From positions 23,064,001 through 23,128,000 of the forward strand of contig OU452201.1 in assembly GCA_911728435.2 (NCBI GenBank): DNA of 64,000 bases. The letters are read 5' to 3'. Position 1 is the stretch's first letter. Each line of letters opens with the position of its first letter. The position numbers were made by a program, and so were the translations under genes. The notes below the pieces were generated by a model. The model had not been told where the DNA came from, searched no databases, and worked only from the letters and a program-made list of their open reading frames with translations. Below, in pieces: positions 1,581-48,310 of the stretch. The DNA is from Apoderus coryli. Taxonomy: Eukaryota > Arthropoda > Insecta > Coleoptera > Attelabidae.

Positions 1581-2861
1581 TTAGTATGTTGAATGTTGGG
1601 ACAATTCTGGATCATCAGTCATTTCTGCTTCGCTCGTATCGTTGGAGGTTTGAGATAGGTTGCTGCAGATGCTGATATCATCTGGAGTCTCCAGGTGTTC
1701 TCGAAGTTTTTTGTTTATGCGGGTGAATCTGTTTTTGATAGCTCTTTCTTTTAATCGTGGATATAACTGACGCATATTAAGAACTAATAACTTGATATTT
1801 TTAGTAAACTTGAGGGCCTCAGTGTAGGGGTCTGAGCTTCCATGGGTATTCTCTAGAAAGGCGATGAGGTTATCGGCGTCCATAATAAAGTCAGCTGGAG
1901 ACTCAGAGATGACTTGATAAATAGTCTGTTTTGTGTTGTCACTTAGAGTTGGTCCTAGAGAACAAACTGTTTTTCTTTTTTTTAGAATATGTTTAGGGGT
2001 CGTTGAGGTACTTGCAGGCGGTGGCATTATAGAGTCAGATGAGGAATCTGTGATCACACTTAATGGCATATTCTCGTTATTAGTGGGTGACTCTGGAAGG
2101 GTTCTTTTTTGAGATATTTGCACTTGGCTGTTTAACTTGACAGGTGATGCGCTATATATAGATTTATCTGAGGAGTGTACTTCGCTGTTTGTGGACATAT
2201 GTGCTTGAGAGTTTTTAGGTGCTGTGATCTCGTTTGGGCACTTTGAAGCTATGTGCCCTGTTTTCTTACAAACAAAACATTCCATTTTGTCCGTAGAAAT
2301 AAATACTCGATGGTCGTTGCCCTCGAATGGGAGTACAATGGAGGTCTGAAGTTCGAGGTTATCGGAAGTAGGGAAAACATGAATTTGCCTGCGAAAACTT
2401 AGAATGTGACTGTATTCATCGCCAGGTATACCAGCTTTTATGAATGACAAAGGTGAAGCTAAGTGTAAGCCCAAATTTTTGAGGGCATCCTCCACCAACT
2501 CGTGGGGAATAGACGGACACACGTTAGAAATGATTACGCGTTTTGTGGGTGATATCAACCTACGAACATTTAGATTCACATTCCCAACCGCGATGGATGG
2601 ATGCTCCTGAGTGATTTTGGAAACTAAATCGGTGCTTGATAAATAAATACAAATTCGATTGTTCGAAATCCTGGAAGCGAAAATTATGTTTTTTGATCCT
2701 ATAATGTTACCTACCGATTTAACGTAGTCAAACAACTTTAAGCTTTCATCTGCATGGAACACAATAGCTTGCTCCTTTTTTGGGAATGTTGGTTTTGGAT
2801 TTGATTTTATTGCCGAGGAGTAGGATGTGGAACCATGTTGTTCTGTATTTGTTTCAATCAT
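1581..2861 (-). CDS. LINE ORF1, gag-like nucleic-acid-binding protein (426 aa)
   Basis: This intact ORF starts at an ATG (2859-2861) and ends in TAA (1581-1583). Residues about 30-190 look like the RRM-type region found in gag-like ORF1 proteins of Jockey/I-group elements. A single CCHC zinc knuckle follows (C195, C198, H203, C208; spacing CX2CX4HX4C). The C-terminal half is Ser/Thr/Pro-rich up to about residue 295, then basic (KKRK near 293) and helical, with an acidic tail. ORF1 proteins of this kind coat the element RNA in a ribonucleoprotein with ORF2. The lack of frameshifts in a window otherwise full of dead elements points to a recent insertion. Confidence 0.9.
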   Translation of the reverse strand: MIETNTEQHGSTSYSSAIKSNPKPTFPKKEQAIVFHADESLKLFDYVKSVGNIIGSKNIIFASRISNNRICIYLSSTDLVSKITQEHPSIAVGNVNLNVRRLISPTKRVIISNVCPSIPHELVEDALKNLGLHLASPLSFIKAGIPGDEYSHILSFRRQIHVFPTSDNLELQTSIVLPFEGNDHRVFISTDKMECFVCKKTGHIASKCPNEITAPKNSQAHMSTNSEVHSSDKSIYSASPVKLNSQVQISQKRTLPESPTNNENMPLSVITDSSSDSIMPPPASTSTTPKHILKKRKTVCSLGPTLSDNTKQTIYQVISESPADFIMDADNLIAFLENTHGSSDPYTEALKFTKNIKLLVLNMRQLYPRLKERAIKNRFTRINKKLREHLETPDDISICSNLSQTSNDTSEAEMTDDPELSQHSTY

Positions 2862-3110
2862 ATTTCTGCCCCTGTAGTCAGAAGCAGATTTTTGTTCGCC
2901 GTTGATTGTTTTAACTATTCACATACACTTTTGCAAAACACACTTTTATCTTGATTTTATTTTAACTGTAGAAGATAAGCGATATCGTACTACCTATTGA
3001 ATATATGATAGCCGCTGCGATGTTTACACGTTGACGGTCTGGCCGTATTATTAAATAGCATATTTTACTAAATTCTACAGATTCCATGTATTATGCTTAT
3101 TTTTTTAACA

Positions 3111-3216
3111 TACATAATGAAAATAACAATTAATTAAACTTAGGTATTAAATTGTGAATCTAATGCAATTCCCAAGTTAATACCTAAGTTTAATTAATTG
3201 TTATTTTTATTATGTA
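3111..3216. repeat. Near-perfect 40-bp inverted repeat, 26-bp loop
   Basis: Bases 3111-3150 and 3177-3216 are reverse complements at 39 of 40 positions. The sequence is AT-rich. It lies just beyond the LINE leader and just before a Penelope-type repeat fragment, so it may be the tip of a decayed foldback or inverted terminal repeat. No coding content. Confidence 0.85.
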
Positions 3217-3286
3217 ATGTTTTTTTCACAGAATTGATATATGGATGTTTAGGTTTGGCTTATTGTGAAGACATCTGTAAGATTTT

Positions 3287-6640: not shown

Positions 6641-7102
6641 ACGAAACTTGCAATTTCAAAAACACCATAACAAGCACGCATGCAGCACAGGTTTAATGGA
6701 AAATAAGAGTATACGACAACGCTTGGCGAGTGTGTTATGTACCTATATGTATATTCTATATTATAATTTTGATTCTCTCTATCTCTATCCCACAGTTGCA
6801 AATTTCTAGTGCTATGCTAATATTCTTTATTTAGTTATTTACTTTTTGGAATGCTTAAAGTTTTGATATTTGGATTAAAAAAAAATAGAGTTTTTATTTT
6901 GTAATCGACATCTTTTAATTTAAGATTTAAAATATAAAAAGTAAAAAAAATATATACATACGGTTATTAATTAGTACCTATATTTAGCTGAGGTACTTAT
7001 AAACATAACCTATAATATTTTCTGCAGTATACAGTTGACGAGGTAGAGATATCCCTATTAATTTTAGCTGTACCTGTATAAGACTTTATTTTTTTAAGAA
7101 TT
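6641..7102. other. Gene-free AT-rich stretch
   Basis: Homopolymer-rich AT sequence with nothing I can support. Confidence 0.5.
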
Positions 7103-7139
7103 GGTTGTTACATAAAGCAACAAGACTTTAAGTTATGGT

Positions 7140-7237
7140 GGAAATTTGTTTCACACTACCATGCTTTCACCAGACGGCCGTTTCGTCCATCCACGACTCA
7201 TCAGTGGTGATCGGCAGGCAGTGTGACCCAAATTTCC
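7140..7237 (-). ncRNA. Hammerhead ribozyme, type I, intact core
   Basis: Read 5' to 3' on the minus strand, all conserved hammerhead parts are present in order. CUGAUGA is the complement of 7198-7204. A 3-bp stem II (GUC/GAC, 7-nt loop) follows, then GAAAC (complement of 7180-7184), a very short stem III, and cleavage triplet GUC (complement of 7173-7175). Cutting would fall between 7173 and 7172. Stem I begins with 6 perfect pairs (UCACCA/UGGUGA). It continues through a 6x6 internal loop, a 10-bp helix with one G-U pair, a 2x2 loop and a final 9-bp helix (GGAAAUUUG/CAAAUUUCC). Stem III is the palindrome ACGGCCGU, so a dimeric double hammerhead is plausible. The homologous block shared with 14988-15158 extends from about 7103 to 7272. 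No protein gene is associated. Confidence 0.88.
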
Positions 7238-7272
7238 AACATTTACAAAGAGCTTATACTAGCACGAGAATT

Positions 7273-8060
7273 GATTGAGAGAGAGAGATGTTACTTCTTG
7301 TCCGGCCATCGTTTGGGAACTGTGTTTCACCCGGCATATTGCCTGTTCACGCTAGGTGTCGCCAAAAACATCTCTCTCTTTATTTTTTTTGTTATGCTTC
7401 AGGCTTCACCACAGTCAACTGCCACAAGCCGCCACTGAAATCGACATTGGATTATAATATCAGAGTTTATGCACAAAAAGCTTTGACTTTCAAATTTACC
7501 AGACACAACTTTATAATAATATAATTAAGAAATATTTTGTACTTTTTCATCTGCTTATATTATTTTTTTTTCCTTTATTATGTTTATATATTTTCTTTGA
7601 AAAAACATATGTTTTAATTTGATAGATTTTCTAAAGCTTCGTATATTATACTGCAGAGTCGATGATTCTACAAACACATTAACAAAACGAGTCAACGCAG
7701 CAAGCATATTGTGCAGTGCATCGATGCATCAATGCGAGAGAAACATTGAGTCAAAGTGATGATGCGTGCATGAAGTCCACAAATATTGTAACAATAAGCT
7801 CGGATGTGTAAATTATAGAGAATATTAACAGCTGCTTCGTTTGCGAAGTTTATATCCAGTTTTTATATATATATATATGCTGTTATTCTGATCTCAATGT
7901 TCTTTATCCCTTAAATATACTTAAATCGCCAGTTTTGAACAAACTCAGGAGTTTGAAGGTAAATTAAAGTTCCGTCATATTCGTGCTGTGTTTCGTATAT
8001 AACGCAGAAACCACTTGTTATATATCTTGTTCATCCAAATAGTAGCTATTGTAAGACAAT
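7273..8060. other. Gene-free stretch with a short inverted GA/TC-tract pair
   Basis: GAGAGAGATGTT (7279-7292) is repeated inverted as AACATCTCTCTC (7367-7380), framing about 75 bp of higher G+C. No ORF in this stretch is convincing. Confidence 0.4.
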
Positions 8061-9372: not shown

Positions 9373-10095
9373 TAAAGTAAAATGCACCAGAATGCTGCTA
9401 CATGTGAAAAATCAGTGACGGCTGATGTATAGCTGCAGAGCCGCAGCACTTGCTCCTGATAAAAAAAATATTTCAATTTTTTGGCGAGTAGTTTACTTAT
9501 AATATAAAAAAAGTGTATTTTAATATTGTTATACATATTATTTTTCGCTATAATTTTTATCCATGTCGTTTGTCAGCTCCCATTCGTGGTTATAATATTA
9601 TATTAGTGCTCCCTACCCCGTGAAATATGGTACGTAAACTTCCCGTTGCAGTGCTGGTGGTATCCCGCAGAATACGACAATACGACCTTGAGCCGACCAA
9701 TGGCAATTGAGAATTATTTCCAAGTTACGATATCTGATGTAGTTTTTAGAGCCTCATGACGTATACATACAGAGCTGCAGAATGGGCAGATTGTAGTGTT
9801 TGATGTCGGTATAGCTTTTGTTTCATATTTTGAGTTCATTCTTTTGGTTTTGTTAATAATTGAAAAAATAAATTTAATTTCAAAGTATAAGGACTTATAT
9901 TGAAGTGTCTTCCACAAGCCGGGGAAAAGTTATGTAAGAAAATTTAATAAAAACATTTATGAAAAATATGAATGGATCTGTGGCTTTGAGATAAAAAAAT
10001 ACATCGTGCTAAAAAGGCCAAACTGCATGGAAATTCCAACCAACATCTTACAAATCAAATGCGTCTTAACACATTTTAAATAGGTATATTTTATT
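9373..10095. other. Gene-free stretch
   Basis: Probably the degraded flank of the Harbinger relic. Short open frames here (for example 9714-9917 minus) show no motif. Confidence 0.45.
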
Positions 10096-10528
10096 ATTTC
10101 ACTGTGAAGCTCGTGGGTAAAAGAACGAAATCAAGTTACAACACTTTATGTAAAAGTCAACGTTTCGAGGTTTAATTTCCTCTTTTTCAAGCTTTCTTTT
10201 CTTTTTAAAGTATTGTGTATAATGACATAATAAATGGTGTTAATATTATAGAGATAAAAAATACAGATATATAATGTAAATTCTTAACTAGTCAGTTTTA
10301 ACGTATAAAATTTTTAAAATCATATTTTAAGAAGCTAAGAATTTACATTATATATCTGTATTTTTCATCTCTTTAATGTTAACACTTGCATTATGTATTT
10401 ATACACAATACTTTAAAAAGAAAAGAAAGCTTGAAAAAGAGGAAATTAAACCTCGAAACTTTGCTGACTTTTACATAAAGTGTTGTAAGTTTATTTCGTC
10501 CTTTTACCCACGAGCTCCACAGTGAAAT
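10096..10528. repeat. 433-bp palindrome of Penelope-type ends
   Basis: Arms of about 190 bp (10096-10286 and 10336-10528) are inverted copies around a 49-bp centre. Each arm carries an element of the form GAGG, AT loop, CCTC, GAAAC, the hairpin-plus-GAAAC layout of Penelope-like pseudo-LTRs. The left arm keeps CGAAACGTTGAC (minus strand), while the right arm reads CGAAACTTTGCTGAC. No coding sequence remains between the arms. Confidence 0.7.
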
Positions 10529-13500
10529 ATATATCTAAAGGACACGAAATATTTAAAAAAATATTTTATTATGTACCTTACCTACTACTACGCTCTACAG
10601 CACTGCCTCTTTGACAGATCACGAGCTACCACTGAAAAAAACTAATAAGAAAAATAAAATAAAATCAAAAGGCCCTAAACATCAAACTTGTCAAAGAGTA
10701 GTCGACGGCAACACAGAGTACTGTTTGAAGTTACTGTCACCTGCTGTAATAGAATTCAATATCGAAATCGACAGGTAGATTTCTATTTAATATACCCACT
10801 GCAGCCATCGAATATTTTAACTATAGACTATTTTAACTGTGCTGCAGCTCTTGCTCACTGATATGTAAGTCTCGTCATTATACTACCGTTGACTCACGGG
10901 CTGGTGCAAGAGTGTCTTATTGCTTTTCAAAATATTCGACTTAATTAATAGTTTGCATGTATTTGAACCAGTTTTCGAAAAAAAATTTACTCTGAAGGTT
11001 ATATCTCGCTGTGCGCGAGCTGGAATTATGCCATGATGATGAATAATACGTGGTTTTCGGTTGTAAGACTTTTCGCAAACAAATTACCGTATACCATTCA
11101 GAACTCATGGCTAAATATAGTGTTCATAATTGTGGTGTTTTCACACCCACCTCATGAAGAAACACCACTTGATATATTGTACTACGTAATTATTGCCGTG
11201 TTTTAATCATATACTTAGTTGTTTCCTTGGATTTATATTAAAATGGAATAAACACACTGTATGGATGTTTGGTACTTGAACTCTTGAGCATTAGCGTATA
11301 GTGGGTATTAAAACTTTCATTCTAACAAACGATGCCGATGCTTCATAGCATCTATATCTATATGCATACAGACATACATAGAACAAACTCTCTACAAAAC
11401 TTTCCCTCATATTACTAAACATCAAAGTGGCTTCAAATTAAAATATTTAAATTAGTTTGCCAGCATGTAGATATGTAAGCGCAATATGTATCTACTTAAA
11501 ATTACGAGAAAACGCTTTGCCGGCTAACAATTTTATTGCGTATATTGGGGTAATGAAATATTTGATTTTGAAATTCATCCAGATATGCATCGGAATGGTA
11601 GATGTGCTTCCTAAAAAAATATATCGGATTCAGAATTCAATACATCACAAAAATGTATTTGTAGGTTTCTGATCCGGACTCCTAAACCTGAAAACTGATC
11701 TCATTTCATTTTCTTTAACAAAATTTGGATAAAACAAAAACGCATAAAGCATAAGTTTTAAAAAAATAATATTAAATCTAATATTTATTAAAATATACTG
11801 GAAATTAAACGAAAGAATTAAAATTAATGCTTTCCTGATCCCCTTGTTTATTAACGTACTTATGTATACCGGGAAGGATTTCGATCGACTTTGGAGAAAC
11901 TATACATTGTGGAACAATTTGAAAATCTGGTGTAGTACGTAGGTCGACGGGGTCAATTTAGCTAAAATGTTTTCAAGAATTTAGTACTTCCTGTTATACT
12001 GGAAGTGTGTGTCAATTTCCGTAATTTAAATACGACTCTATATTAAAAATTATATTTTACTTTCCCGCACAGGGAAATTATTGTGAACGCGCTAAAAAAA
12101 AATGTTTTGATAAAGACGGATATAACCATTTAAAAGTTCCTTGAGACGATTAAGACCATTTCCAGATGGAAGTCTATCTGTCTGTGTGTATTCTTCCACG
12201 ATAGCGTTTAAACGCTTTAAATAATTGAGCGAAACTTTGGTATATGAGTTTGGGGCAGTCCTAGGATGAAGCCGTTAGATTTTGGCTGAAATCGCTTAAG
12301 CCCTGTGATAGGGGTGGACACAACCGCTAAAATTTCAAATAGCAGTAGTGGTCGAGTGATACATCATTTTTATCTGCTTTACAGCGATAGGTCACTTTTG
12401 ATATTTGCCCCTATAATTGGCATTTAGGGTGTTTGCCTGGGCGTGACATTGATTACTCGCTTTTCTTGAACAGATTCCATTTTACATCTTTGAAATCTTC
12501 TAGAATAGTAGCATATCAGTTGATGCTTTTTAAGTTAAGGCCAAATCGATTGTCCCTATTTGCTGGAGAGCATTGATTTTAATGTTCCACAATACAATGT
12601 AAGATCCCGATATTTATTCAGAAACCCTCAAAAACATTCAAGCTACGAGAGTAAGAGCGCCGATAACAATGGCATCGAGTTTGTCAAATGAATACACATT
12701 TTATGCAAGCGTTAGTTACTTTGATGTAAAGTTGATTACGTTTAAGAAAATGTTGTGTAGTCTTATTAATATGTAATTATGAATTTATTGTTATTGGTTT
12801 GCCTTCTAATTGGTTGTTCGCCTGTTAGGCAAATAAAGCATTATTTCTTCATTTATTATTATTTATATCCCTTACCCCCTAAAATAAATATGCGAAATGT
12901 CCTATAAAGAATGGGACCAATCGTAGCAGGAAGTGCCTTCAAATAATGCTAAACTTACTTAGTCCGAAAATTATATTAATCAAGATACAAAGTGAAAGAT
13001 AAATTCTTGAACCTCTTAACGTATTCGCGCTCAATTTGGTACATGAATGTTTTTTGATCCGACAAATAGTGGATAATAGATTAGATTGAGTTGTGAGGTA
13101 GTGGCTTCAAATGGCGATATGTGGATTTATTTCAACTTTTTTATCTTTAAATGAAATTTCACAATGTTGCTTAGGTTTGGTGGCCATTAACGAATCGTAA
13201 ATATTTTCTTAAAGATTTAAATGTAAAAAAAAACATGTTAACTTTATTTTGTAACAAGACACACGGGCAATAGAATTTACTTTTGTCCTACCCTGTATAT
13301 ATATTTGAGTTTTATAGATATGTCTCATATTTTTATACCTAATATGTCTAGAAGTATAATCTTTTCGTAAACATCATACAACATCTGCAAGTAATAAATT
13401 TATTATGTTGGGATTTTAACAAATATTCCTAAAAGAAGTTTCACCTAAAAGAACGACCTTTTTCTTGTTCGAAGAATATTGAGTTTGTTTGTCAGTTAGT

Positions 13501-14660: not shown

Positions 14661-15024
14661 ACCCGCTAATTTCAAAATGGTTACAATTTTATTGTTATAA
14701 AATGTTGGCATACGAAATACGTTACTAGATGCGGGAGGTTATGATCAGATCATATTTTTTGAAATATGGTCACATATTTTTATCGCGCTATAAATTTATA
14801 AGATAAACGTATAATATCTTACTCTAAAGTGTATAATATACCTACTACAGTAAAGCAGTTGATCAATAAACATGAAGTGTGATCCGTTGCGCAATGTGCT
14901 CCAGCTTTGTAATAATTTTCCAAAAAAAAAATTAGATTTAGGGAATCCAAAAAAAAATCCTTAAAAATAATGTTGTATAAATGAATTGCTTGTTACATAA
15001 TGTAACAAGACTTTATGTTTTGTT
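14661..15024. other. Gene-free stretch
   Basis: AT-rich sequence. The last 37 bases belong to the repeat block shared with 7103-7139. Confidence 0.45.
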
Positions 15025-15123
15025 GGAAATTTGTTTCACACTACCATGCTTTCACGAGATGGGCCGTTTCGTTGATCCACAACTCATTAGTGGGGACCGG
15101 CAGACAGTGTGACCCAAATTTCC
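15025..15123 (-). ncRNA. Hammerhead ribozyme, decayed copy 2
   Basis: Same family as 7140-7237; the shared block runs 14988-15158. The outer stem I is perfect over 13 bp. Stem II is GUUG/CAAC, a compensated C-G to U-A change relative to copy 1, and GAAAC is kept. The core has become CUAAUGA and the cleavage triplet GUC has become AUC. The proximal stem I pairing is also damaged, so activity should be lost. Confidence 0.75.
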
Positions 15124-15160
15124 AACATTTACGGAGAGCTTATCCTAGCACGAGAGTTGA

Positions 15161-17478
15161 AATTTCTATAAGTTGCACCTATTAGAGTACTGTCTGTATA
15201 AACTAGTGCAGTATCACACAAAATATAAAAAGATGTAACTACCATATTTCGCGTAGAAAGCAGTTTCTCCACATTTGAATTTCAATTAATGCGCTTTTAC
15301 TTTCTTTTTGCTGGGTCACCAGGTAAAATAATATAGAAAGTTGTCATACTACTTGTAGATTTAAATATGTATTTGAATTAAATAGTTTATTATTTAATTT
15401 GGCTTAATTTCAATATTTGATGATTTCTATGGAGATACTGCATTTTAGCTAAGCAAATGCTCGCTACTGCTTTTCAGATATTTAGGATGTGAGAACCTTA
15501 AAATGTGGAGATACTGCTAATGATTTAGTTACTGGTATAAATACATAACATAAATACTGCATTTTCTTTTTTAGTCAGAAAGCTGTAAAAATGTTAAAAA
15601 CACAGTAACTCCAAAATAACAAAATTGCCTTTAATTACAATATCTTCTAATTTTAACTGTTTTTTTTTTTAGAATTCCAGCCAAAATTTGCAATTGCAGC
15701 CTTGGGAAAGTGGCGAATTTGTATTATTAATTTGGACAACAGAAGCTAAAAGTGGGTACTGAAGTAACTTGAATTTAATAATATTCTGTATAAAAGTATT
15801 TCTCTGAAGTCGAAAAGCTTTTGAGAAACGAAAATATCTTTAAATGCTAAATTATACCAGCTAGTGCTAGCTAATAGTGTGGTTAAACATGCTATGCTTT
15901 GAACAACCCTTCTTATAGATTTGATCACATTATGATTCTTATTTAAAACTTCATTGTAACATCAAGTAAAACAATCATAATATTTTATCATTCTTTCCTG
16001 TATATAACAGAGATTCAATCCATTTTTTGTGCCTTTATGCAATAAGCAATAAAATATTACTACTCCCAAGGGGCTATTGATTCTAAGACTTCCGGAATTA
16101 AAATTGAGCCCTCGGGATGAACAGCAATTTAAGAGATGGAAATCTGATATTGGACAAAAGTAGAAGTTGTGTGGGAAGTTTAAATGTTAAAAGATTAAAT
16201 TATATCTACTTTACACAAAATATAGCTCGTGTTGGAATATAATTTGTAATCGTGCATATAATTCTTCATAGAAAATATTTAAGTTCATTATATTTTTTGT
16301 TCTTTTTTAAGAATATCTAGTAGATATTTTTCGTCATTTATAAATACAAAATTGTGTAGTTTATTTACATTTTGACTACATCAGAAAACACAAATCTTTT
16401 GATTTGTATGCATTACTTTTTGTTTGTGTTTGTAATTACTAGCAACATGTAGTACATATGCATGCAAGATTAAAAATTATCTGATTTTCAAAGAAATGAA
16501 AGAATTTATAATAAATAAAATAATAATTAAGCTCCCTTTATACTAGTGAGTATTATATAGTCTAAACTTAAGTTAAGTAACATGTCAACTAGTGAAAACA
16601 ATCTCTATATCGAATCAAATTGTACCACCTGCTAATAACCTTCAGGGTTGATGCAGGTATTCTTAATAAAAAAAAGGTTAAATGACGAATTAACTGCATC
16701 TGACTTAGATATAATCTTTCATTTCTTTAATTTGATTAAAATAGCCAACGAATTTTCTTCATTGATATTTTTCCTGTATACAAAAAAAGAACAAAATACA
16801 GGACAATTTGATATATCAAGGATGGTAAAATAAATTGGGCGATAAACTGATGGAGCTCTGCACACCGCTGTGTTTAGATGCCCATGGACAGAGTAACAAA
16901 CAAGTCAGTACTGCAAGTATTGTGGAAGGTTTTGGAAGAATTCAGTAGCTATTTTGGAATGTTGCTCTAAAATTATTGTAGTTTGTCGGGTTTCTCAGGT
17001 AAGTTCATTACAAGTAATTCATTATTATTATTACAAAGTAATAATTTGAAAACCATGATGTAAACAGTTGAAGAAGCCGACGATCCGAAAATAGAGAAAC
17101 GTCGTCGTGAAGAATTTCTGCAAGGAGAATATCTAATTACCAGAAAAACTGTTCATACTCAGCAGACGGTCGCGAAAGCATCACAAAATGTATCAATTTT
17201 CAAGTTGATATGTAGATAAAATCAATATATCTTGATTTTTGATTTAATTTTGCCCTTCTAGGTCTGTAACTTACTCTTGAATTGATGATCGATATAACAC
17301 TTAAATCTCTACAATTTGGTTACAAATTTCTCGCAGGTATATTTAAGTAAATATAAGACAATAATATATTATAAAGTAACAAAACATTAAAAAGTGTCAT
17401 CACCCGCTACACCTGTAATTATTTTTGGCAAATGAACACCTGGTGAAATAACAATAAAGCCGAACTTACCTATGTATA
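15161..17478. other. Gene-free AT-rich stretch
   Basis: Only short spurious frames (such as 15746-15928 minus and 16648-16833 plus). Nothing supported. Confidence 0.5.
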
Positions 17479-17480
17479 TA

Positions 17481-19078
17481 CCTTTTCAAGTTCAAATTGG
17501 TACTAATTAGAATCAAAATGACATTAGTCAAAATCAAATTGACAACATGCATTTCAAATTGGCATTAATCAAAAGCAAATTGACAATAATCAAAACCTAA
17601 TGGCACTAATCGCTTTCAAATTGACAGTAAACAAAATCAAATTGGCACTAGTAAATTTTAACTTGGTGTTAAATACATCAATCGGATTGGTTATTAATTG
17701 TCAGTGTCAAAGTGTGTGTTAGTTAAAAATTCTTACCTATAATACATTGCAAGATGCCTTATATAAAAAAAAATGTTGCTTAAAATTTGAAGGGGCAGAT
17801 TTGTGCATTATATAATGCCAATGGTGCCTAGCGTAATCTTACAAATGTACTGGATGTGGCAAAAAGAACTGCGTATCGATGGGTTAGCAATCAAGAGCTA
17901 TCGGAGAAGCAGCGAGGAGGTAAACGTAGAGTTAAAATAACCTCCGAACACCGTCAATCCCTTGAACGTTCAGTCGAAGAAATTCCTAAAATTACTCTTA
18001 AACAACTGAGTGAAAAAATACGAGAAGTATTTGTTATCAACATTTCTAAGGAATGCATTCGACGGCATCTGAATGGACTTATGTTTACTTTGAAGGCCGT
18101 GCGTAGAGAACCCGAAAACGCAAATAGTTTTGAAGAAAACAAAGTATACGAAATTACGGTGAAAACTTGTTAGATATTCAGGTACAAAATATACCTATTA
18201 TATATATTCACTGAACGAACTTTAATTTGTTCATATCAAGGACGCAGGGCCGTTCAAAAAAATGAAGTCGTTGTACAAGTATATCTGCAGGTTGCAGAGG
18301 ATCGAACATTCACCTAATAGGATGCATTGGAACTATGGGGTTAATTTATTCCGAACTTAGAAGGGGTTGTTTCAAGAAGCCGAAAAAAAAAACGAATTTG
18401 TGAAGCAGTGCTTAAGAAGAGCGCAAAACAGTTACGAAACTGAAGTTGCGTTAGTCGTTGATAATGCTCCAAGTCACTCCAGTATTGAAGAAGTTTTTGC
18501 AGAGGACGAATTTCAGCATCACACATTTTTACGACTAAGTCAGTATAGCCCTATGTTCAATCCCATTGAACAAGCACGGTCTGTATTAAAGGCAGTAGTA
18601 AAACCAGATATGGCTGAAGAGCTAACTAACATCTTGGCTGGTGCTGACCGGGATCGTCTGCCTCAAACCGAATAGCGAATGCAGAAATTAGAGAACATCG
18701 TTAGTGGCAATATTGTTAAGATAACAGTTGCAAATTGTACCAAATTTATTGCACATATACAGAGATTTATTCCTGCTGCATTAGATATGCAAGATATAAT
18801 TTCTTACGAAAATGTGTTATTTAAAATTCGTTAATGGTTTCAATAATTTAATTAATGTTATTTATTATGTATCATTAAATAAATTGTTTTCGCTAATTGT
18901 ATGTTACTAGCGCCAATTTGATTTTGTTTATTGTCAATTTGAAAGCGATTAGTGCCATTATGGTTTTGAATATTGTCAATTTTCTGTTGATAAATGCCAA
19001 TTTGAAATTCATTTTGTCAATTTGATTTTGACTATTGTCATTTTGATTCTGATTAGTGCCAATTGGAACTTGAAAAGG
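17481..19078 (+). mobile_element. Complete Tc1/mariner-superfamily element, inactive
   Basis: A 1,598-bp element flanked by TA on both sides (17479-17480 and 19079-19080). Inverted ends start CCTTTTCAAGTTC and extend about 170 bp. Both ends are built from short tandem variants of a phrase such as TCAAATTGACAATAATCAAA, so the inverted repeats are internally repetitive. A single broken transposase lies between them. TA duplication and a DDE enzyme with NAPSH and NPIE place it in Tc1/mariner/IS630. Confidence 0.88.
17754..18834 (+). pseudogene. Tc1/mariner (DD-E type) transposase, disrupted
   Basis: Reading from ATG 17754, a helix-turn-helix N-terminus (ending VAKRTAYRWV) and a second DNA-binding part (ITLKQLSEKIREVF) are clear. 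The first catalytic block should read about DETNFN but is here HxTNFN with a stop (18211-18228), so the first Asp is lost. The second block is VVDNAPSH and the third YSPMFNPIEQ. I count 35 residues between the second Asp and the Glu. The reading continues through further stops to TAA at 18832-18834. It would have excised and reinserted the element at TA sites. Confidence 0.85.
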
Positions 19079-19480
19079 TATAGTGTAATGGGTATGTCAG
19101 TTAAAATAACTGTCAAGATGACATTTTGGTTATACTTGGCGACTGTCAGAATATTCTATTATTTGTTTACTAATAGTTTTTGTCAGTGTAGACTACATAT
19201 AAATAAAAAATATATAAACCAAAAGCTACATTTCCGACTGGCTGTCATTGGGATCTTTTTAATGATTTTTACGTTGCATTGTAAAAACTTAATTTATAAA
19301 TTTTCAGTATATATACAGTTGTCATTTCACGATATAAATCTCATTATTTTTACACTGATAATATCGTTTGCGTTTGCTTTTCCTGATATTTCACTGTGAA
19401 AATGAACTCCTTGGATTTTGCTGATTTGAATATGCTTATAATGAAAACAGTATTTGGCTATATATAGAAAATTATTTTCA
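19079..19480. other. Gap between Tc1-like element and exon; 3' UTR candidate
   Basis: AT-rich. A 125-codon plus-strand frame (19022-19399) is hydrophobic, low-complexity and partly inside the transposon end, so it is not a gene. On the minus strand this would be 3' UTR of the exon above. Confidence 0.35.
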
Positions 19481-21420: not shown

Positions 21421-23332
21421 TTTTTAATTGAGTGTTTCACTGAAGCCTTTCCTAAATCCTACCACTTAAATATCAGTATGGTAAATCTTTATTTATTATT
21501 ATCATACACAATTGTAACCTTGTGTATGATAGGGATTATCATACACAAAGTTACAAGCTAATTGGTTATAGAAAGCTGCTTCTCAGACTATCCTTCAGGT
21601 TTTCCAAGACAGCTATTATTGATAACGGAAGAAATTGTGATTTTCGAAATTCCATTCAATTCAATGTAAACTCCAATTAAAATGGCTGAGGTCAGTGAGA
21701 TGAACAAACCAAGGGTATAGAAAGCGCACTTTATGTAGACTATCTTAAGAATATCTTCCTTCAAAGCCCTTATTACGAGTATTCTAATTCGGAGAATAAA
21801 ATTTCAAAATTAGTGATATCTTAAGTTGTGATTTTAAGAGTAGCCAATGGAAACAGGTGTGTTCTCTCAAAATAGCAACTAAGCGTTTTACATTATGATA
21901 TACACACCTATTCTGCTAAACCGGAAATGTGTCAAACACCCTTACTGCCGCCACCATGGTAAAATGTTAACGTATGCGAAAATTTCACATGAAAATATTT
22001 TCACGAGACTTCCGTTTCCGTGTCTCTTCAGGCAATGTAAGTGTATAAAATTATGCAGACACACAGCCTGTACGACACTTTCAGTTTTTGGGGTGGATAT
22101 TTTATCTCTCTCTCTCTCTCATTTTGTGTATATGTGTTTGGAGTAATTGCCGTAAATGTATTCGGAAAACCGTGAAAAGTTTGAAATTAATTTGAGTCGG
22201 AGATGCAAATGGTTTATATAGAGATATGTATGGGAACATTTAGGAAAACATGAACGCGTTGAAGCGAAACGATAATAAAAAGAGTTTATAGAGTCTGGAC
22301 ATGAAGTGGTTAGTATAGACAGAGTGTTTCGTGGAAATCTGTTTTCCAACTTTTAATTAGTACTTCAGATACACTTTAAATTATATGGGCAAAAATTAGT
22401 TTATTAGCAACCAGACAAAATCTATATTATTGTAAAAAAAAAACTTGACTAATAAAATGTGATGCAGTATTGAAAAATTGTTTCTCAAATTAATAAAATA
22501 TTGTTTTTTCAACTAAATTAATTTATTGGAAAATAATTGCAAATAACTGAGAATCCACAGTAGACAACTTTGTTAAAAAATCATCCTTGAAATGGTCTGC
22601 TGGTGAGAAGCAAATGCATTAATTCAAAATATATACATTTTATAAGAATTTTCAAAAAGGACGAACAAAATAAACTAAACTAACTAGATAAAAGCAAGTT
22701 CATCATGGATCAAAAATAAAGAAAAAATTATACACACAGTAGAGAAAATTTTTCTAGCAATTCGTTAAAACTTATTAAGAAAACTTTTCACGTTAGATGG
22801 AATCTGATTATAACAATACGAATCTAGAAAAGAAATGGCCTCTCAAAGAGCTATTTCTAAAAATTAAGAGTGATATTCTTGCTGTTTTTTGTGAGTAAAA
22901 GCGTGGACAGACTATTATTACGTCACGTGAGGTCACGTGATATCACATCGGCAAAATCTCACATGCTATTACGCGTTAGAAACATACTATGTAACACCAT
23001 CATTTTTATTACATATTTTGAGTGACTAACCGAGTGTTGCCGCTAGCAAGGTTTTAAAGTATGTGATCGCTTGTCCATAATTATCGATTTTGCCCAAGTC
23101 TATACAGCATACATAAGAATGGCATAAGCAAAATCATAAAAGTTAAATTCATTGTAATCATAGGGACCGTTTATAAACGACTTATAAGTTTAAAAAATTC
23201 GTCGTAATTGAAAATTAACAAATTAGAATATCCATTATCATACAAAATACAAAATTTAGGGTAAGAAAATCAGCTGTGCTCTATCTAAAACTCAAAATTA
23301 GATAGATACGCTTACATTATTATTGTTTAGAC
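21421..23332. other. Intron sequence without recognised genes
   Basis: A (TC)n microsatellite lies at 22104-22120. Two TCACGTGA palindromes sit close together at 22922-22941. Otherwise nothing supported. Confidence 0.45.
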
Positions 23333-24474: not shown

Positions 24475-25220
24475 AGTGTTTCAGAAACACATGGTCAAAA
24501 TTTGTGTGCGAATTGGGGACATCTAATCATGAAAAAAACCTTTTTCGAAAAGTTATTAACAACCTAACTTTTTTTCCTTGTGATTTTTTTTCATTTTGTG
24601 TCAAAAATGTGATAAAATAAATAATTCTTTTTTCTCCAGAAACTTAAAGGTTTTCGAGAAATTCGAGTTTGAAAATTTTGGGACAAAACTGGTCCTTAGT
24701 AAACAGCATTAATAAAATTATTGAAATACAGTTTCCTAACGAAAAGTTTTCCAAAATTTTATTAATGCTTTGTATTAAGGACCAGTTTTGTACTAAAATT
24801 TTCAAACTCGAATTTCTCGAAAACCTTTAAGTTTTTCGAGAAAATAGAAGTATGCTTTTTTTATGTACAAAACTTTATTTTATCACGTTTTTGACACAAA
24901 ATGAATAAAAATCACAACGAAAAAAAGTTAGGTTATAATTAAGGCAAGGGTCCCCCCGTTTGCTCACCTATGGTCATTCTTTTTTATTCAATTTCATGTC
25001 AGTTTACGACATTTTACTAGGTTAATAAATATGCTACATTTGGTTATTCATCTTTACTCGTTTCGAAAATATTTCAAAAAAATCGTAATCAGGCAGTCAT
25101 CTTTACCACCCTGTATCTTTGTAAATAAGGACTTTTCGAAAAATTACAATTCAGTTTTTTTTCATTGGATGTCCCCAATTCGCTTACAAATTTTGACCAT
25201 GTCTTTTTGAAACACCCTGT
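24475..25220. repeat. Foldback/MITE element, about 745 bp
   Basis: Inverted arms start GTGTTTCA, then ACATGGTCAAAATTTG. They also share an inner segment, GAAATTCGAGTTTGAAAATT, at 24659-24678 and inverted at 24798-24817. The right arm carries an extra segment of about 150 bp (24935-25090). The right end is ACACCCTGTAT, typical of insect mariner-related MITEs. No coding sequence. Confidence 0.75.
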
Positions 25221-27926: not shown

Positions 27927-28026
27927 CATTCTTGTATTTCTGTCCCATACTAGACATCCACCAGACGGCTCCACAACTCATTAGTATCCAGTAGGTGGTC
28001 CAGTATGTGACAGAAATGCAGGAATC
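27927..28026 (-). ncRNA. Hammerhead ribozyme, decayed copy 3
   Basis: The minus strand has a long stem I of different sequence from copies 1 and 2 (CAUUUCUGUC pairs with GACAGAAAUA, and CAUACUGGAC with GUCUAGUAUG). The core is CUAAUGAGUUGUGGA running directly into GCCGUCUGGUGG. The distal half of stem II and GAAAC are deleted, while the cleavage-side GCCGUCUGGUG of copy 1 is kept. It must be inactive. Confidence 0.65.
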
Positions 28027-32139: not shown

Positions 32140-32480
32140 ATTTTAGTGTTTAAATGAAAGTCGTACAAACACAACGCTAAGACATACAATATTCCATTAA
32201 ATTTCCACCGAAGTCACTTTATGGAAAACATATTTGAATTATTAAAATTTAATAAAAAATGTGTAATTGTAATTTTAATTAAATTTTAATAATTCAAATA
32301 TTTTTTCCATAAAGTGATTTCGGTGGAAATTTAATGGAATATTGTATGTCTTAGCGTTGTGTTTGTACGATTATTGACATGCCACTGATGATAGGACTGG
32401 TCTAGTCCCGAAACATGTATGGCCGATAGTTTCTATTAAATTTATCTTGTGGAGATTCGACTTTCATTTAAACACTAACA
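32140..32480. repeat. Penelope-type palindrome with inverted ends
   Basis: TGTTTAAATGAAAG (32147-32160) and its inverse (32461-32474) bound the unit. A near-perfect inner palindrome has arms of about 95 bp (32161-32260 and 32275-32371). The right part carries the hammerhead-like motif annotated separately. No ORF remains. Confidence 0.7.
32382..32420 (+). ncRNA. Penelope-type hammerhead-like motif
   Basis: CTGATGA (32385-32391), a GGACT/AGTCC hairpin and GAAAC (32410-32414) are intact, followed by ATGTATGGC. There are extra unpaired bases at the base of stem II (UA on one side, C on the other). A stem III is not obvious. Confidence 0.45.
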
Positions 32481-33838
32481 ATTTTGTGATAAGGATGGAG
32501 TTACGCTATACTGCTGAGGATTAAATGCGGCATCTGGTGTAGCGGGTGATGCTGTCAATTCTTGTTTACCTTTCTCTAATATTTTTATCAGGACCGAACT
32601 TAGTATAGTTTGTCTTGCTATATGTCAAAATATTATAATTACAATTCTTGATGACGTTTAATGACAAATTCATGGCTACCTAATAAACATATAGCAAAAT
32701 AATCCAATTTTTATACAAACTCATTTTTATAGAGTTTAGGTATAGGAACATGATAATTCATTTGAACGCAAATTTTATTGTATATTACAATATTTGATAA
32801 TATACAAGGGGTGCCATTTGCCGTATTTGGGACCACCCTGTGCGTCAGTCTCTCAAGATAGTTGATATTCTTAAGATATTATTGAACTACCTTCAAAATT
32901 TGGTCTATTCAACCGACAAAATGGCGAATATTTCCTTAAAAAGTATGTTTTACCAAAAATCAAATTAACGAAATATTTTTTGAAAGCTTTAAAGCATTAC
33001 AGAAATATTTCAGGCAACCAATGAAATCGGGTAAAGTGAGATTTGCTGTAGAATGAGAAGGAAATGAAACAGCCTGTATATCACGTCATATTTGTGAAGT
33101 TGTCTTAATTTTATTTCAAACGATATTACAGTTCTCAAACCTAAACCTTAATGTTTGCCACGAAACGCATTATTTTATTATCTTTTAACATTTTGATGAT
33201 AACAGGTAGGTGGATTAATAACATCCAATATTCAGATGAAATCAAAACTTTTAAATTGCAGGGTGTTCCGTTCGGAAAAACAGAGTAATTCCTATTTTTA
33301 CCAGTAGGTCATACTACAGTTATTGGTCTACTTAGGATCATGTTTGAATATGTCTTGATCCTACTGGGGGTAATTTTCAAGATTATAACGATTCAAAAAA
33401 GCTAACTGCATTTTCTGCAATGAACTGTTTTTGGCTAAAAAAAAATATATATTTCAGAAACAGTTGAAGGTAAGTATATTTAAACCAAATATTTCAAAAT
33501 GAGTAGATAATTAGTCCAAAAACGTATTAAGATATAGGGTGTTCCATTCATTATAACAACACATATTATCTATCTTAGACTGACATAATGCTCATTTAAG
33601 TACCTTCCATTATCCAAATTAATGCGTATTATTAATTTTTCCAAGACCAAGCCACCACGTGAACGACTCTGTATATTTCATCACATGATACAAGTACTTA
33701 TATGACCCATGTAATTTGCTTAAAATTCAGTAGCGAACCGGTATCGAAAAAATGTTGCTTTATTTTAACGAAATAATTGTAACCAATACTATTTCTCATT
33801 GGCCATATTACCACCAGCTATTTTAAGCATATACTAAC
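32481..33838. other. Intron sequence of the CBM39 gene, nearest the first exon
   Basis: Transposon-end phrases GACCACCCTGTG (32849) and GGGTGTTCCATTC (33537) are present. I found no further CBM39 or GH16 exon on the minus strand. Confidence 0.4.
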
Positions 33839-34232
33839 CTTTTACTTTAAACTCCCCATCATCAAAACGGTATCCCAAACTTTCCCTTATCACAAACAAC
33901 CAAAAATACAACACATCACCGGTCTTCAATTTCACTTGTTTGTCTTCAAACACCCACTCTTCACCACGTTTCTTCAATACATCCCTGGAGAACATGCCCG
34001 CCTCCAAACCGTTCATAGGCAAATTTATGTTGCCATGAAAGGCAAATAGCCTTATAACTCCATCGTCAGGAATACCAACACGGAAACCACGTTCAAATAC
34101 TTCAATTTTGGGTTCCGGTACACTGTACGGCGTATCAAACAGAGTAGCAGGCACAGCACTTGTTAATATTATCGGAATTAAAAAATATATGAAAACTATA
34201 CCATTAAAGATATTGTTAAATTTCATGGACAT
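33839..34232 (-). CDS. First coding exon of a beta-1,3-glucan-recognition-type protein: signal peptide and CBM39
   Basis: The start is ATG 34232 or ATG 34226 (numbering below uses 34226). The longer reading from 34358 begins with TTG and is not a start. Residues 1-26 are a signal peptide with hydrophobic core IVFIYFLIPIIL. Residues 35-126 match the CBM39 domain of insect GNBP/betaGRP proteins: VPEPKIEVF, GFRVGIPDDG, LFAFHGNIN, W-FED, KLKTGDVLYFWLFV, LGYR. This domain binds beta-1,3-glucan in the haemolymph and feeds Toll or prophenoloxidase activation. The exon ends AAAG at 33839 with donor GTTAGT, phase 1, compatible with the acceptor at 19951. A secreted pattern-recognition protein is inferred. 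A plus-strand frame at 34108-34434 is its antisense shadow. Confidence 0.85.
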
Positions 34233-34347
34233 TTTTTCTTGTTCTCTGGGTGAGGATGTAAACAATACTGTTGCGAGAATCGGTTTGATAATGTTAAATG
34301 TAAATATTAATCTTGCAAGGGAATTGGAGAAACTGGTATTTTTACGA

Positions 34348-34357
34348 GGGATTTCCA
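34348..34357. promoter_or_regulatory. kappaB-like site (GGGATTTCCA)
   Basis: The plus-strand sequence fits the Dorsal/Dif-type consensus GGGWWWWCCM exactly. It lies about 120 bp upstream of the CBM39 start codon, probably in the 5' UTR. Toll-regulated insect immune genes often carry such sites near the start. Confidence 0.35.
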
Positions 34358-34383
34358 AAAGATTAAATCAATGTGCAAGTAGT

Positions 34384-46519: not shown

Positions 46520-48310
46520 CATACTTCTACCATAAGTAGAGGCACGTTAGGGGATTATCAAATGACCATTAAAAAATGTCACCTTGTTTTGATTATTAAT
46601 ATACAGGGTGAATTATGGATCTTCACCAAAACAATGTTTCCTCATATCTTTTCAATGATTAAGTCGATTTATCTCATTTTTTTATAGAAGTGTGTATTGA
46701 TGTCTGGCAACTAACTGACATATTCAGAATTGAAAAAATCCAGGTCCGTCTTCGAGAAAATTTGTGAGACTGCTTCATATTCAGCACTTCACCCTGTATA
46801 CGATTTTTAAAAAATCTGATATAATTTTTTCAGAGAGCATAAATAGACAGTTAGACCTGGGTATTTCAATTTTTTGTTACACTCACCTCACATTTCAAAT
46901 TAAAGATTCATTTTAGAGCCAAATTGAAAATTGGCAATAATGAAGTATCTTACTGTACAATAATGTTTAGTTATTAAAAAGAAATTTTCAAAATAGACAG
47001 AAACGACACACACTGTGCTCTAGTATGGTAAATACCATAATTTGAATTGATTTACAGGGCTGGATTTAAAAATCTCGCATATCTGGTTCATCCCAATAAT
47101 TCACCATGTATGTAACTTTTTCCACCCGTAAGAGACAGAAAACAGATAAAAAACGTTTGAAATAACCTAGTTTTCTCATTTGTTTGAGGAAAAATCATGT
47201 GCCTAATTATTTTAATCGGAATGAAATGAACAAGCCAGGGAAATGTTTATTCATAAATTAAGAAATAAAATAAAAAACAATAACCAAACAATAAAACAGT
47301 TTTAACAAAGTGGAACAAAGTAAAAAACAATTTAATAAACATGACTATTGTAAAAGATGTTCAAAATGAAATCCATCTGCCTTAATACACTTTTCTTGAC
47401 GAATGTTTAAATGTGTAATGGACTTTCTGATTGTCAGTGGGTCATTTCTAGTAATATTGCAACAGTGCACAATTCTGTTAATGAGCTGTTGTGGTTTATA
47501 ATCGTAATGTTTATTAAATTGTTTTTTACTTTGTTCCACATTGTTAAAACTGTTTTATTGTTTGGTTATTGTTTTTTATTTTATTTCTTAATTTATGAAT
47601 AAACATTTCCCTGGCTTGTTCATTTCATTCCGATTAAAATATTTAGACACATGAGTTTTCCTCAAACAAATAAGAAAACTAGGTTATTACAAAAATTTTT
47701 TGCCTGTTTTCTATGTAATACGGGTGGAAAAAGTTACATGCAGGGTGAATTATTGGGATGAACCAGATATGCCAGATTTTTAAATCCAGTCCTGTAAATC
47801 AATTCAAATTATGGTATTTACCATACTGGAGCACAGTGTATGTCGTTTCTGTCTATTTTGAAGATCTCTTTTTAATAACTAAACATTATTGTACAGTAAG
47901 ATACTTCATTATTGCCAATTTTCAATTTGGCTCTAAAATGAATCTTTAATTGGAAATGTGAAGCGAGTGTAACAAAAAATTCAGATACCCAGGTCTAACT
48001 GTCTATTTATGCTCTCTGAAAAAATCATATCAGATTTTTGAAAAATCATATACAAGGTGAAGTGTTGAATATGACGCAGTCCCACAAATTTTCTCGAAGA
48101 CGGACCTGCATTTTTCAATTCTGAATATGTCAGTTAGTTGCCAGACACCAATACACACTTTTATAAAAAAAATGATTGAAAAGATATGAGGAAACATTGT
48201 TTTGGTGAAGATCCATAATTCACCCTGTATATTAATAATCAAAACAAGGAGACATTTTTTAATTGTCATTTGATAATCCCTAACGTGCCTCTCCTTATGT
48301 ATGTACTTAT
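46520..48310. mobile_element. 1.8-kb foldback element with arms over 800 bp
   Basis: Left arm 46520-47343 and right arm 47507-48310 are inverted copies with scattered mismatches and small indels. The loop (47344-47506) holds only the last codons of a transposase. Several ACAGGGTGAA-type phrases occur inside each arm. This is a deletion derivative of a DNA transposon with very long inverted repeats. The right terminus runs into a (TATG)n microsatellite. Confidence 0.9.
47345..47506 (-). pseudogene. Transposase C-terminus in the foldback loop
   Basis: The minus-strand frame reads HYDYKPQQLINRIVHCCNI, TIRKSITHLNIRQEKCI and GFHFEHLLQ, then stops at 47345-47347. The ending CI--GFHFEHLL is typical of mariner-like transposases. 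The catalytic domain is absent. Confidence 0.65.

Follow-up and report, generated by a model that had tools for sequence, protein, structure and literature searches.

Animal retrozymes are described, in excerpts of two papers, as repeats of 150-450 bp with type I hammerhead ribozymes and a GC content below 50%, and circular retrozyme RNA is reported from coral, mussel and axolotl (PMC7229834, PMC7761336). Insects are named among the bearers of such repeats in an excerpt of a 2020 paper (PMC7229834). According to parts of a 2020 review, metazoan retrozymes have no motif that reveals their partner, Penelope-like elements are their likely helpers by co-occurrence, and the hammerheads of Penelope elements are minimal (PMC7761336). 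The Penelope-like element of Anolis (Poseidon) is among the closest known systems: its purified protein cuts and extends both strands and prefers AT-rich targets, reverse transcription begins, without target homology, at two neighbouring internal sites that lie within or close to a stem-loop, and the genomic copies end at the two start sites (PMC11167929). Hammerheads in insect repeats are further reported, in excerpts, from the satellite pDo500 of Dolichopoda cave crickets (PMC2808323) and from interspersed repeats of Aedes aegypti (PMC3088659). Among the titles and abstract openings covered in the open-access literature, none dealt with hammerhead retrozymes of beetles. Here we describe a retrozyme family of the weevil Apoderus coryli, met in a 64,000-nucleotide stretch of contig OU452201.1 (positions 23,064,001 to 23,128,000 of the forward strand, assembly GCA_911728435.2; hereafter the window). 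Among animal retrozymes with type I hammerheads, a kind already described, the family is a new example, and the ends of the weevil insertions add evidence on which helper copies such elements into the genome.

The intact hammerhead of the window (copy 1) lies on the minus strand. An earlier note, made from the letters of the window, had listed all hammerhead elements there in order and had proposed a covariance-model search. Rfam RF00163 (Hammerhead_1) matched positions 7167-7210 with 34.9 bits (E value 5.7e-5), above the gathering score of 34, and it was the sole family to reach its cut-off when the whole window was scanned against Rfam. Manual assignment over 7139-7238 likewise found the conserved core and the three stems in type I order, and the cleavage position that it predicts, between 7173 and 7172, is the one given in the note. 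The note had divided stem I into three helices with 25 pairs; the helices stand, and the count is corrected to 29, in helices of 10, 13 (with one 1-nt bulge) and 6 pairs. Stem II of copy 1 has 3 pairs only. The fourth pair of the family's commonest hairpin (GUCG/CGAC; 20 of 36 hairpins) is absent because one base differs at 7188. A bare hammerhead descriptor that required 6 or more stem I pairs gave a single match in the window and, over 300 dinucleotide shuffles, one match in all. Since the descriptor is so rare in shuffles, the bare core is unlikely to have arisen by chance, and the further 23 stem I pairs, together with the family evidence below, make the case for a hammerhead stronger. On sequence grounds, the feature is confirmed as a genuine and complete type I hammerhead with a predicted cleavage site (Table 1).

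Table 1. Features of the retrozyme and its relatives in the window
Feature	Position	Strand	Basis
Whole retrozyme insertion including both target-site duplications	7084..7389	-	locus L004 coordinates converted, checked on window sequence
Target-site duplication, first copy (AAAAAAATAAAG on minus strand)	7378..7389	.	exact 12-bp match to 7084-7095
Target-site duplication, second copy	7084..7095	.	exact 12-bp match to 7378-7389
Inverted 5' part, monomer m163 to m69 reversed, site B (GAGAGAGATG) outward	7285..7379	+	97% to reversed monomer
Main part, monomer m151 to m338 plus CAATTCTT	7096..7292	-	98% to monomer
Site A (CAATTCTT), fixed 3' end (the other is site B), putative reverse-transcription start	7096..7103	-	A-type end in 27/36 insertions, 3 with changed letter
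3' tail hairpin TTGTTGC-TTTAT-GTAACAA, just before element end	7105..7123	-	paired in predicted folds; copy 2 has hairpin too
Type I hammerhead ribozyme, 29-pair stem I (10 + 13 + 6)	7139..7238	-	Rfam, manual element assignment and fold
Inner stem I, 5' side (UCACCA)	7210-7205	-	manual element assignment
Core CUGAUGA	7204-7198	-	manual element assignment
Stem II	7197-7185	-	manual element assignment
GAA	7184-7182	-	manual element assignment
Stem III (AC-GGCC-GU)	7181-7174	-	manual element assignment
C17	7173	-	manual element assignment
Inner stem I, 3' side	7172-7167	-	manual element assignment
Predicted cleavage site, C17 at 7173 / U at 7172	7172..7173	-	element assignment
Second copy (copy 2), 88.8% identical to copy 1, hammerhead broken	14983..15160	-	self-comparison, alignment
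Third, strongly diverged relic, long stem, GAAA side missing	27930..28018	-	two-copy profile, nhmmer 9.8 bits, E 0.023

The predicted fold of the 107-nt strand was 7.7 standard deviations (s.d.) better than those of its own shuffles. The minimum-energy fold of ViennaRNA was -52.6 kcal/mol versus -42.0 kcal/mol for the hammerhead fold, so that a non-hammerhead fold of copy 1 is favoured by 10.6 kcal/mol. The Rfam hammerhead consensus, with its loop letters filled in by hand, misfolds likewise in ViennaRNA. Therefore, the non-hammerhead minimum-energy fold is no argument against the hammerhead. A dimeric double hammerhead through the ACGGCCGU palindrome is possible in the model: rough energy sums, which neglect the cost of the knotted topology, were -99.7 kcal/mol for the dimer, -84.0 kcal/mol for two monomeric hammerheads and -105.2 kcal/mol for two misfolded monomers.

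We searched the genome (428,062,225 bases) with window positions 7103-7272, a comparison that the note had also suggested. At least 41 places matched. Of these, 40 were 98-100% identical across almost the entire query, and they lay on 12 contigs; since scoring covered 40 of 544 first-look candidates, the copy number is a lower bound. The feature thus sits in an insect repeat, as the note had supposed, and the repeat is dispersed as well as tandem. Its monomer of 337-339 bp repeats head to tail, the hammerhead segment taking up about one half, and the copies range from part units to a head-to-tail run of about 10 units (2.9 units in locus L013, 3.2 units in L027, and 9 full and two part units in one run in L039). 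Our first unit boundary of 172-178 bp, drawn from the two window copies, was wrong: both are single partial inserts of the 337-339-bp monomer, and CAATTC stands at both ends of the window copies because it occurs twice in the monomer. We also considered that the monomer might consist of two duplicate halves, but dropped this as unsupported, with no match longer than 8 nt.

We extracted 36 hairpins from L004-L033 (L026 excluded), accepting only those in which both inner arm words were intact; 20 of them share one sequence, which has an intact core and four pairs in stem II. The long stem I is a family feature and not peculiar to copy 1. The family sits at the Rfam cut-off; the hammerhead cores of L013, for example, read as intact though they score below it. 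The Rfam family search of the genome gave at least 4 matches, with 73 of 52198 candidates scored. Related hammerheads in diverged surroundings were seen at L035, L036 and L037, and L036 contains three such segments, one of them inverted, within 400 bp.

The unit does not encode its own enzyme. One unit of 339 bp (GC content 43.7%) leaves no room for an enzyme gene, and the statement of the note that no protein gene is attached holds for the open reading frames (ORFs) scanned: Pfam was run on 10 of 37 ORFs near the copies, of which 8 had no match and 2 were transposase pieces, and no reverse transcriptase or GIY-YIG domain appeared in the 10 of 37 window ORFs scanned. No ends resembling long terminal repeats (LTRs) were noticed in the loci read, a dedicated LTR search not having been made. 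Folded as a circle, one 339-nt unit has 60% of its bases paired at -112 kcal/mol; the shuffles averaged -80.0 kcal/mol (s.d. 5.0), and 0 of 60 were as good. A pattern of the element had 0 matches in collections of viral contigs and other genome contigs. The hammerhead pattern had 0 matches in the viral contig collection and 3 in other genome contigs, all in records titled as bacteria.

The copies look young (98-100% identity among the 40 scored), and many have clean duplications and fixed ends; therefore, the insertion mechanism can be read from the genome. We surveyed the 3' ends of 37 loci, omitting L026, which overlaps L027, and L035-L038. The classes of ends and the target-site duplications were determined for 36 insertions (L039 also omitted), with boundaries set by hand. 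At the 3' end, 24 insertions have site A, 3 have A with a changed letter, 7 have site B (CTCTCTC) and 2 have another end; of the last two, L005 resembles a mutated B by eye and L021 ends at monomer position m85. Sites A and B are about 170 nt apart in the monomer. The 5' ends vary among the 37 loci. Exact target-site duplications of 11-14 bp flank 15 of the 36 insertions, compared with 4 of 1260 mismatched flank pairs at 11 bp or more. When duplications of at least 9 bp are counted, the numbers are 17 of 36 and 24 of 1260. The duplications are AT-rich by eye, in an AT-rich genome and with no comparison with the background.

Head-to-head insertions also occur. An inverted A or B stub was counted by eye at the opposite outer end of 15 of the 37 loci (inverted B in L004, L007, L015, L017, L018, L019, L021, L022, L025 and L030; inverted A in L005, L008, L028, L029 and L041). 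The window copy, locus L004, is an instance: the element occupies 7096-7377, its 5' part is inverted and a 12-bp duplication stands on either side, and the fold-back next to the hammerhead (about 7285-7379), which lies outside the feature of the earlier note, is this inverted part. Many 5' ends fall within a CT run at m155-161, the place of site B (L005, L010, L011, L022, L024, L034, L040, L042 and L045). The sequences suggest that this run may be used as microhomology in joining. The sequences thus show that the element is dispersed and has duplications, two fixed 3' ends, and inserts that are head to head or of several units.

In our view, the element is probably non-autonomous, a metazoan non-LTR retrozyme that a borrowed and probably Penelope-like enzyme copies from circular RNA. 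In the sequence of events that we propose, tandem copies would be transcribed by read-through, the hammerheads would cut the transcript into units of ~338 nt, and a host ligase would close the units to circles, as in the published model. The reverse transcriptase of another element, most likely a Penelope-like one, would start on the circle at A (CAATTCTT, by the hairpin) or at B (CTCTCTC). The cut target DNA would serve as primer, with both strands of the staggered cut priming. Several laps round the circle would be possible, and extension of both target strands would give the 11-14-bp duplications and the head-to-head inserts. Because the A-ended copies run through the cleavage site, the template would have been uncut or re-ligated there. 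A circular template would best suit inserts of up to about 10 laps, and the long arrays may have grown further by exchange. The narrower proposal, that a Penelope-like enzyme reverse-transcribes retrozyme circles starting at either internal site and from both ends of a staggered target cut, is drawn by analogy and is held tentatively, as a serious possibility short of an expectation. If it is true, the retrozyme would be to Penelope-like elements what short interspersed nuclear elements (SINEs) are to long ones (LINEs), and the genome, through the insertion ends, would bear direct evidence of the partner enzyme, which could be traced through a gene-bearing element with the same ends.

Two broken relatives in the window bear on the question of cleavage. 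In copy 2, the core reads CUAAUGA, stem III and inner stem I are disrupted, and one stem II pair has changed from C-G to U-A on both sides; Rfam did not detect its hammerhead even up to an E value of 1. The profile score of the third relic was reached in 0 of 60 shuffles (best 6.8). This relic has a 16-nt core match with copy 2, its fold has a z of -3.77, and its arm score was reached at 6 of 2000 random positions. Both carry the same G5-to-A core change, CUAAUGA, on the minus strand (15088 in copy 2 and 27982 in the relic), which could be chance or the mark of a lineage spreading without cleavage. Another hammerhead-like match, at 21983-22019, was rejected (nhmmer E value 0.39, no matching stem seen, fold z -1.76). 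Between copies 1 and 2, the core seemed to have changed faster than the stem arms (9/49 versus 1/51, P 0.007); this was set aside, since the partition had been chosen after seeing the data.

The main rival explanation, which we regard as unlikely though worth weighing, keeps the retrozyme and has it mobilised by a LINE-type retrotransposon through target-primed reverse transcription and twin priming. The 11-14-bp duplications, 5' truncation and 5' inversion seen in the loci are LINE hallmarks too, head-to-head inserts arise in LINE elements by twin priming, and microhomology is possible at the 3' junction in some loci. Against a LINE stand two alternative fixed 3' ends in mid-monomer, neither of them an A-tail, that recur at inverted outer ends; such ends better match the internal two-strand initiation of a Penelope-like element (PMC11167929). 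Several other observations, like the twin priming just named, weigh against copying of circles by a Penelope-like enzyme. No duplication of 11 bp or more was found at 21 of the 36 insertions, and in L013, one of the 15 with a duplication, the left copy is 21 nt beyond the boundary. In L004, L011, L012, L015 and L029, the duplications start with letters that continue the monomer; therefore, microhomology between primer and template is possible, unlike in the Anolis case. Insertions starting exactly at the cleavage site number 3 in the genome versus 1 starting three bases on, the two search patterns differing in length. Of these three, L046 looks clean with a duplication-like flank, and L047 and L048 look like head-to-head junctions. 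Only 6 hammerheads in the 20 fetched loci reach the Rfam cut-off, none of them in the arrays L013 and L039, and these loci had been picked for a near-intact hammerhead. An excerpt of the Aedes study reports in vitro cleavage by 14 of 18 consensus hammerheads, but none by an Aedes one as a monomer, which perhaps needs a dimer (PMC3088659).

The multi-lap inserts could instead come from uncleaved tandem transcripts. If uncleaved multimeric RNA were the template throughout, the hammerhead would be a passenger unneeded for mobility, an explanation that we find improbable to about the same degree as a LINE helper. The broken CUAAUGA core common to copy 2 and the third relic suits a spread without cleavage, and few breaks fall at the cleavage site; yet this core could have arisen twice, and 20 of the 36 hairpins keep one identical intact sequence, albeit among copies picked for similarity. 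The note had left the carrier open among a satellite, a retrozyme-like RNA and a Penelope relative. The retrozyme-like option stood, and the insertion anatomy resembles the Penelope type. Plain satellite DNA amplified by unequal exchange would account for the head-to-tail 337-339-bp arrays, one of about 10 units, but it is very improbable given that the scored copies lie on 12 contigs and that many copies are shorter than one unit, with target-site duplications and 3' ends at fixed sites. Chance similarity or a dead relic is hardly credible as an explanation of the motif either: the score is barely above the Rfam cut-off, the bare descriptor turns up once in 300 shuffles, copy 1 is short of one stem II pair and most units in the 20 fetched loci fall below the cut-off, but against this stand the many near-identical hammerheads of the family, with intact cores and a long stem I.

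The window also holds other repeats and coding remnants. An inverted repeat at 46531-47354 and 47495-48299 (about 820 bp, 92% identical, 140 bp apart) is perhaps a fold-back transposon. Palindromes resembling miniature inverted-repeat transposable elements lie at 10095-10529, 24553-24942, 32161-32370 and 3107-3221 (115-435 bp, 79-92% self-complementary). The stretch 17477-19082 contains pieces of an IS630/Tc1-type transposase (HTH_32 and DDE_3, at 17832-18675), set between two inverted stretches that are 93% identical and include arrays of a 21-bp repeat; the distance of the pieces to copy 1 is about 10 kb, and to copy 2 it is 2.7 kb. A CBM39 domain at 33834-34358 (minus strand) probably represents the N-terminal portion of a beta-1,3-glucan recognition protein, with three database matches (Hypothenemus, Euwallacea and Anthonomus) that are 56-65% identical over 55-66% of the query and that point to a weevil or one of its near relatives as the host. 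At 1581-2861 (minus strand), an ORF of 426 amino acids, perhaps a retrotransposon gag or ORF1, has a zinc knuckle of 20.7 bits, the Pfam cut-off being 20.8.

Compared with the metazoan non-LTR retrozymes of the excerpted descriptions, the weevil family likewise has a type I hammerhead in tandem monomers a few hundred bp long, a GC content below 50%, multiple copies, no gene and a highly self-paired predicted circle. Where retrozymes have duplications, these are described there as longer than 4 bp; those of the weevil are 11-14 bp in 15 of the 36 insertions. Unlike the described retrozymes, as far as the excerpts go, the weevil copies add two fixed 3' ends, head-to-head inserts and duplications of 11-14 bp, features that together point to the class of the mobilising enzyme. 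The likeness to pDo500 and the Aedes repeats is that of a hammerhead in an insect repeat, and is drawn from excerpts (PMC2808323, PMC3088659). With Poseidon of Anolis, the weevil element shares two internal ends, a hairpin by one of them, signs of extension of both strands, AT-rich duplications (by eye in the weevil) and a hammerhead near a start site, whereas the weevil sites are about 170 nt apart and the Anolis sites adjacent, and microhomology is possible in the weevil (PMC11167929). With its stem III and long stem I, the weevil hammerhead contrasts with the Penelope hammerheads, which the review excerpt calls minimal (PMC7761336), and unlike Penelope-like elements the unit has no reverse transcriptase or GIY-YIG gene. 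The weevil element is not itself a Penelope-like element but may cooperate with one.
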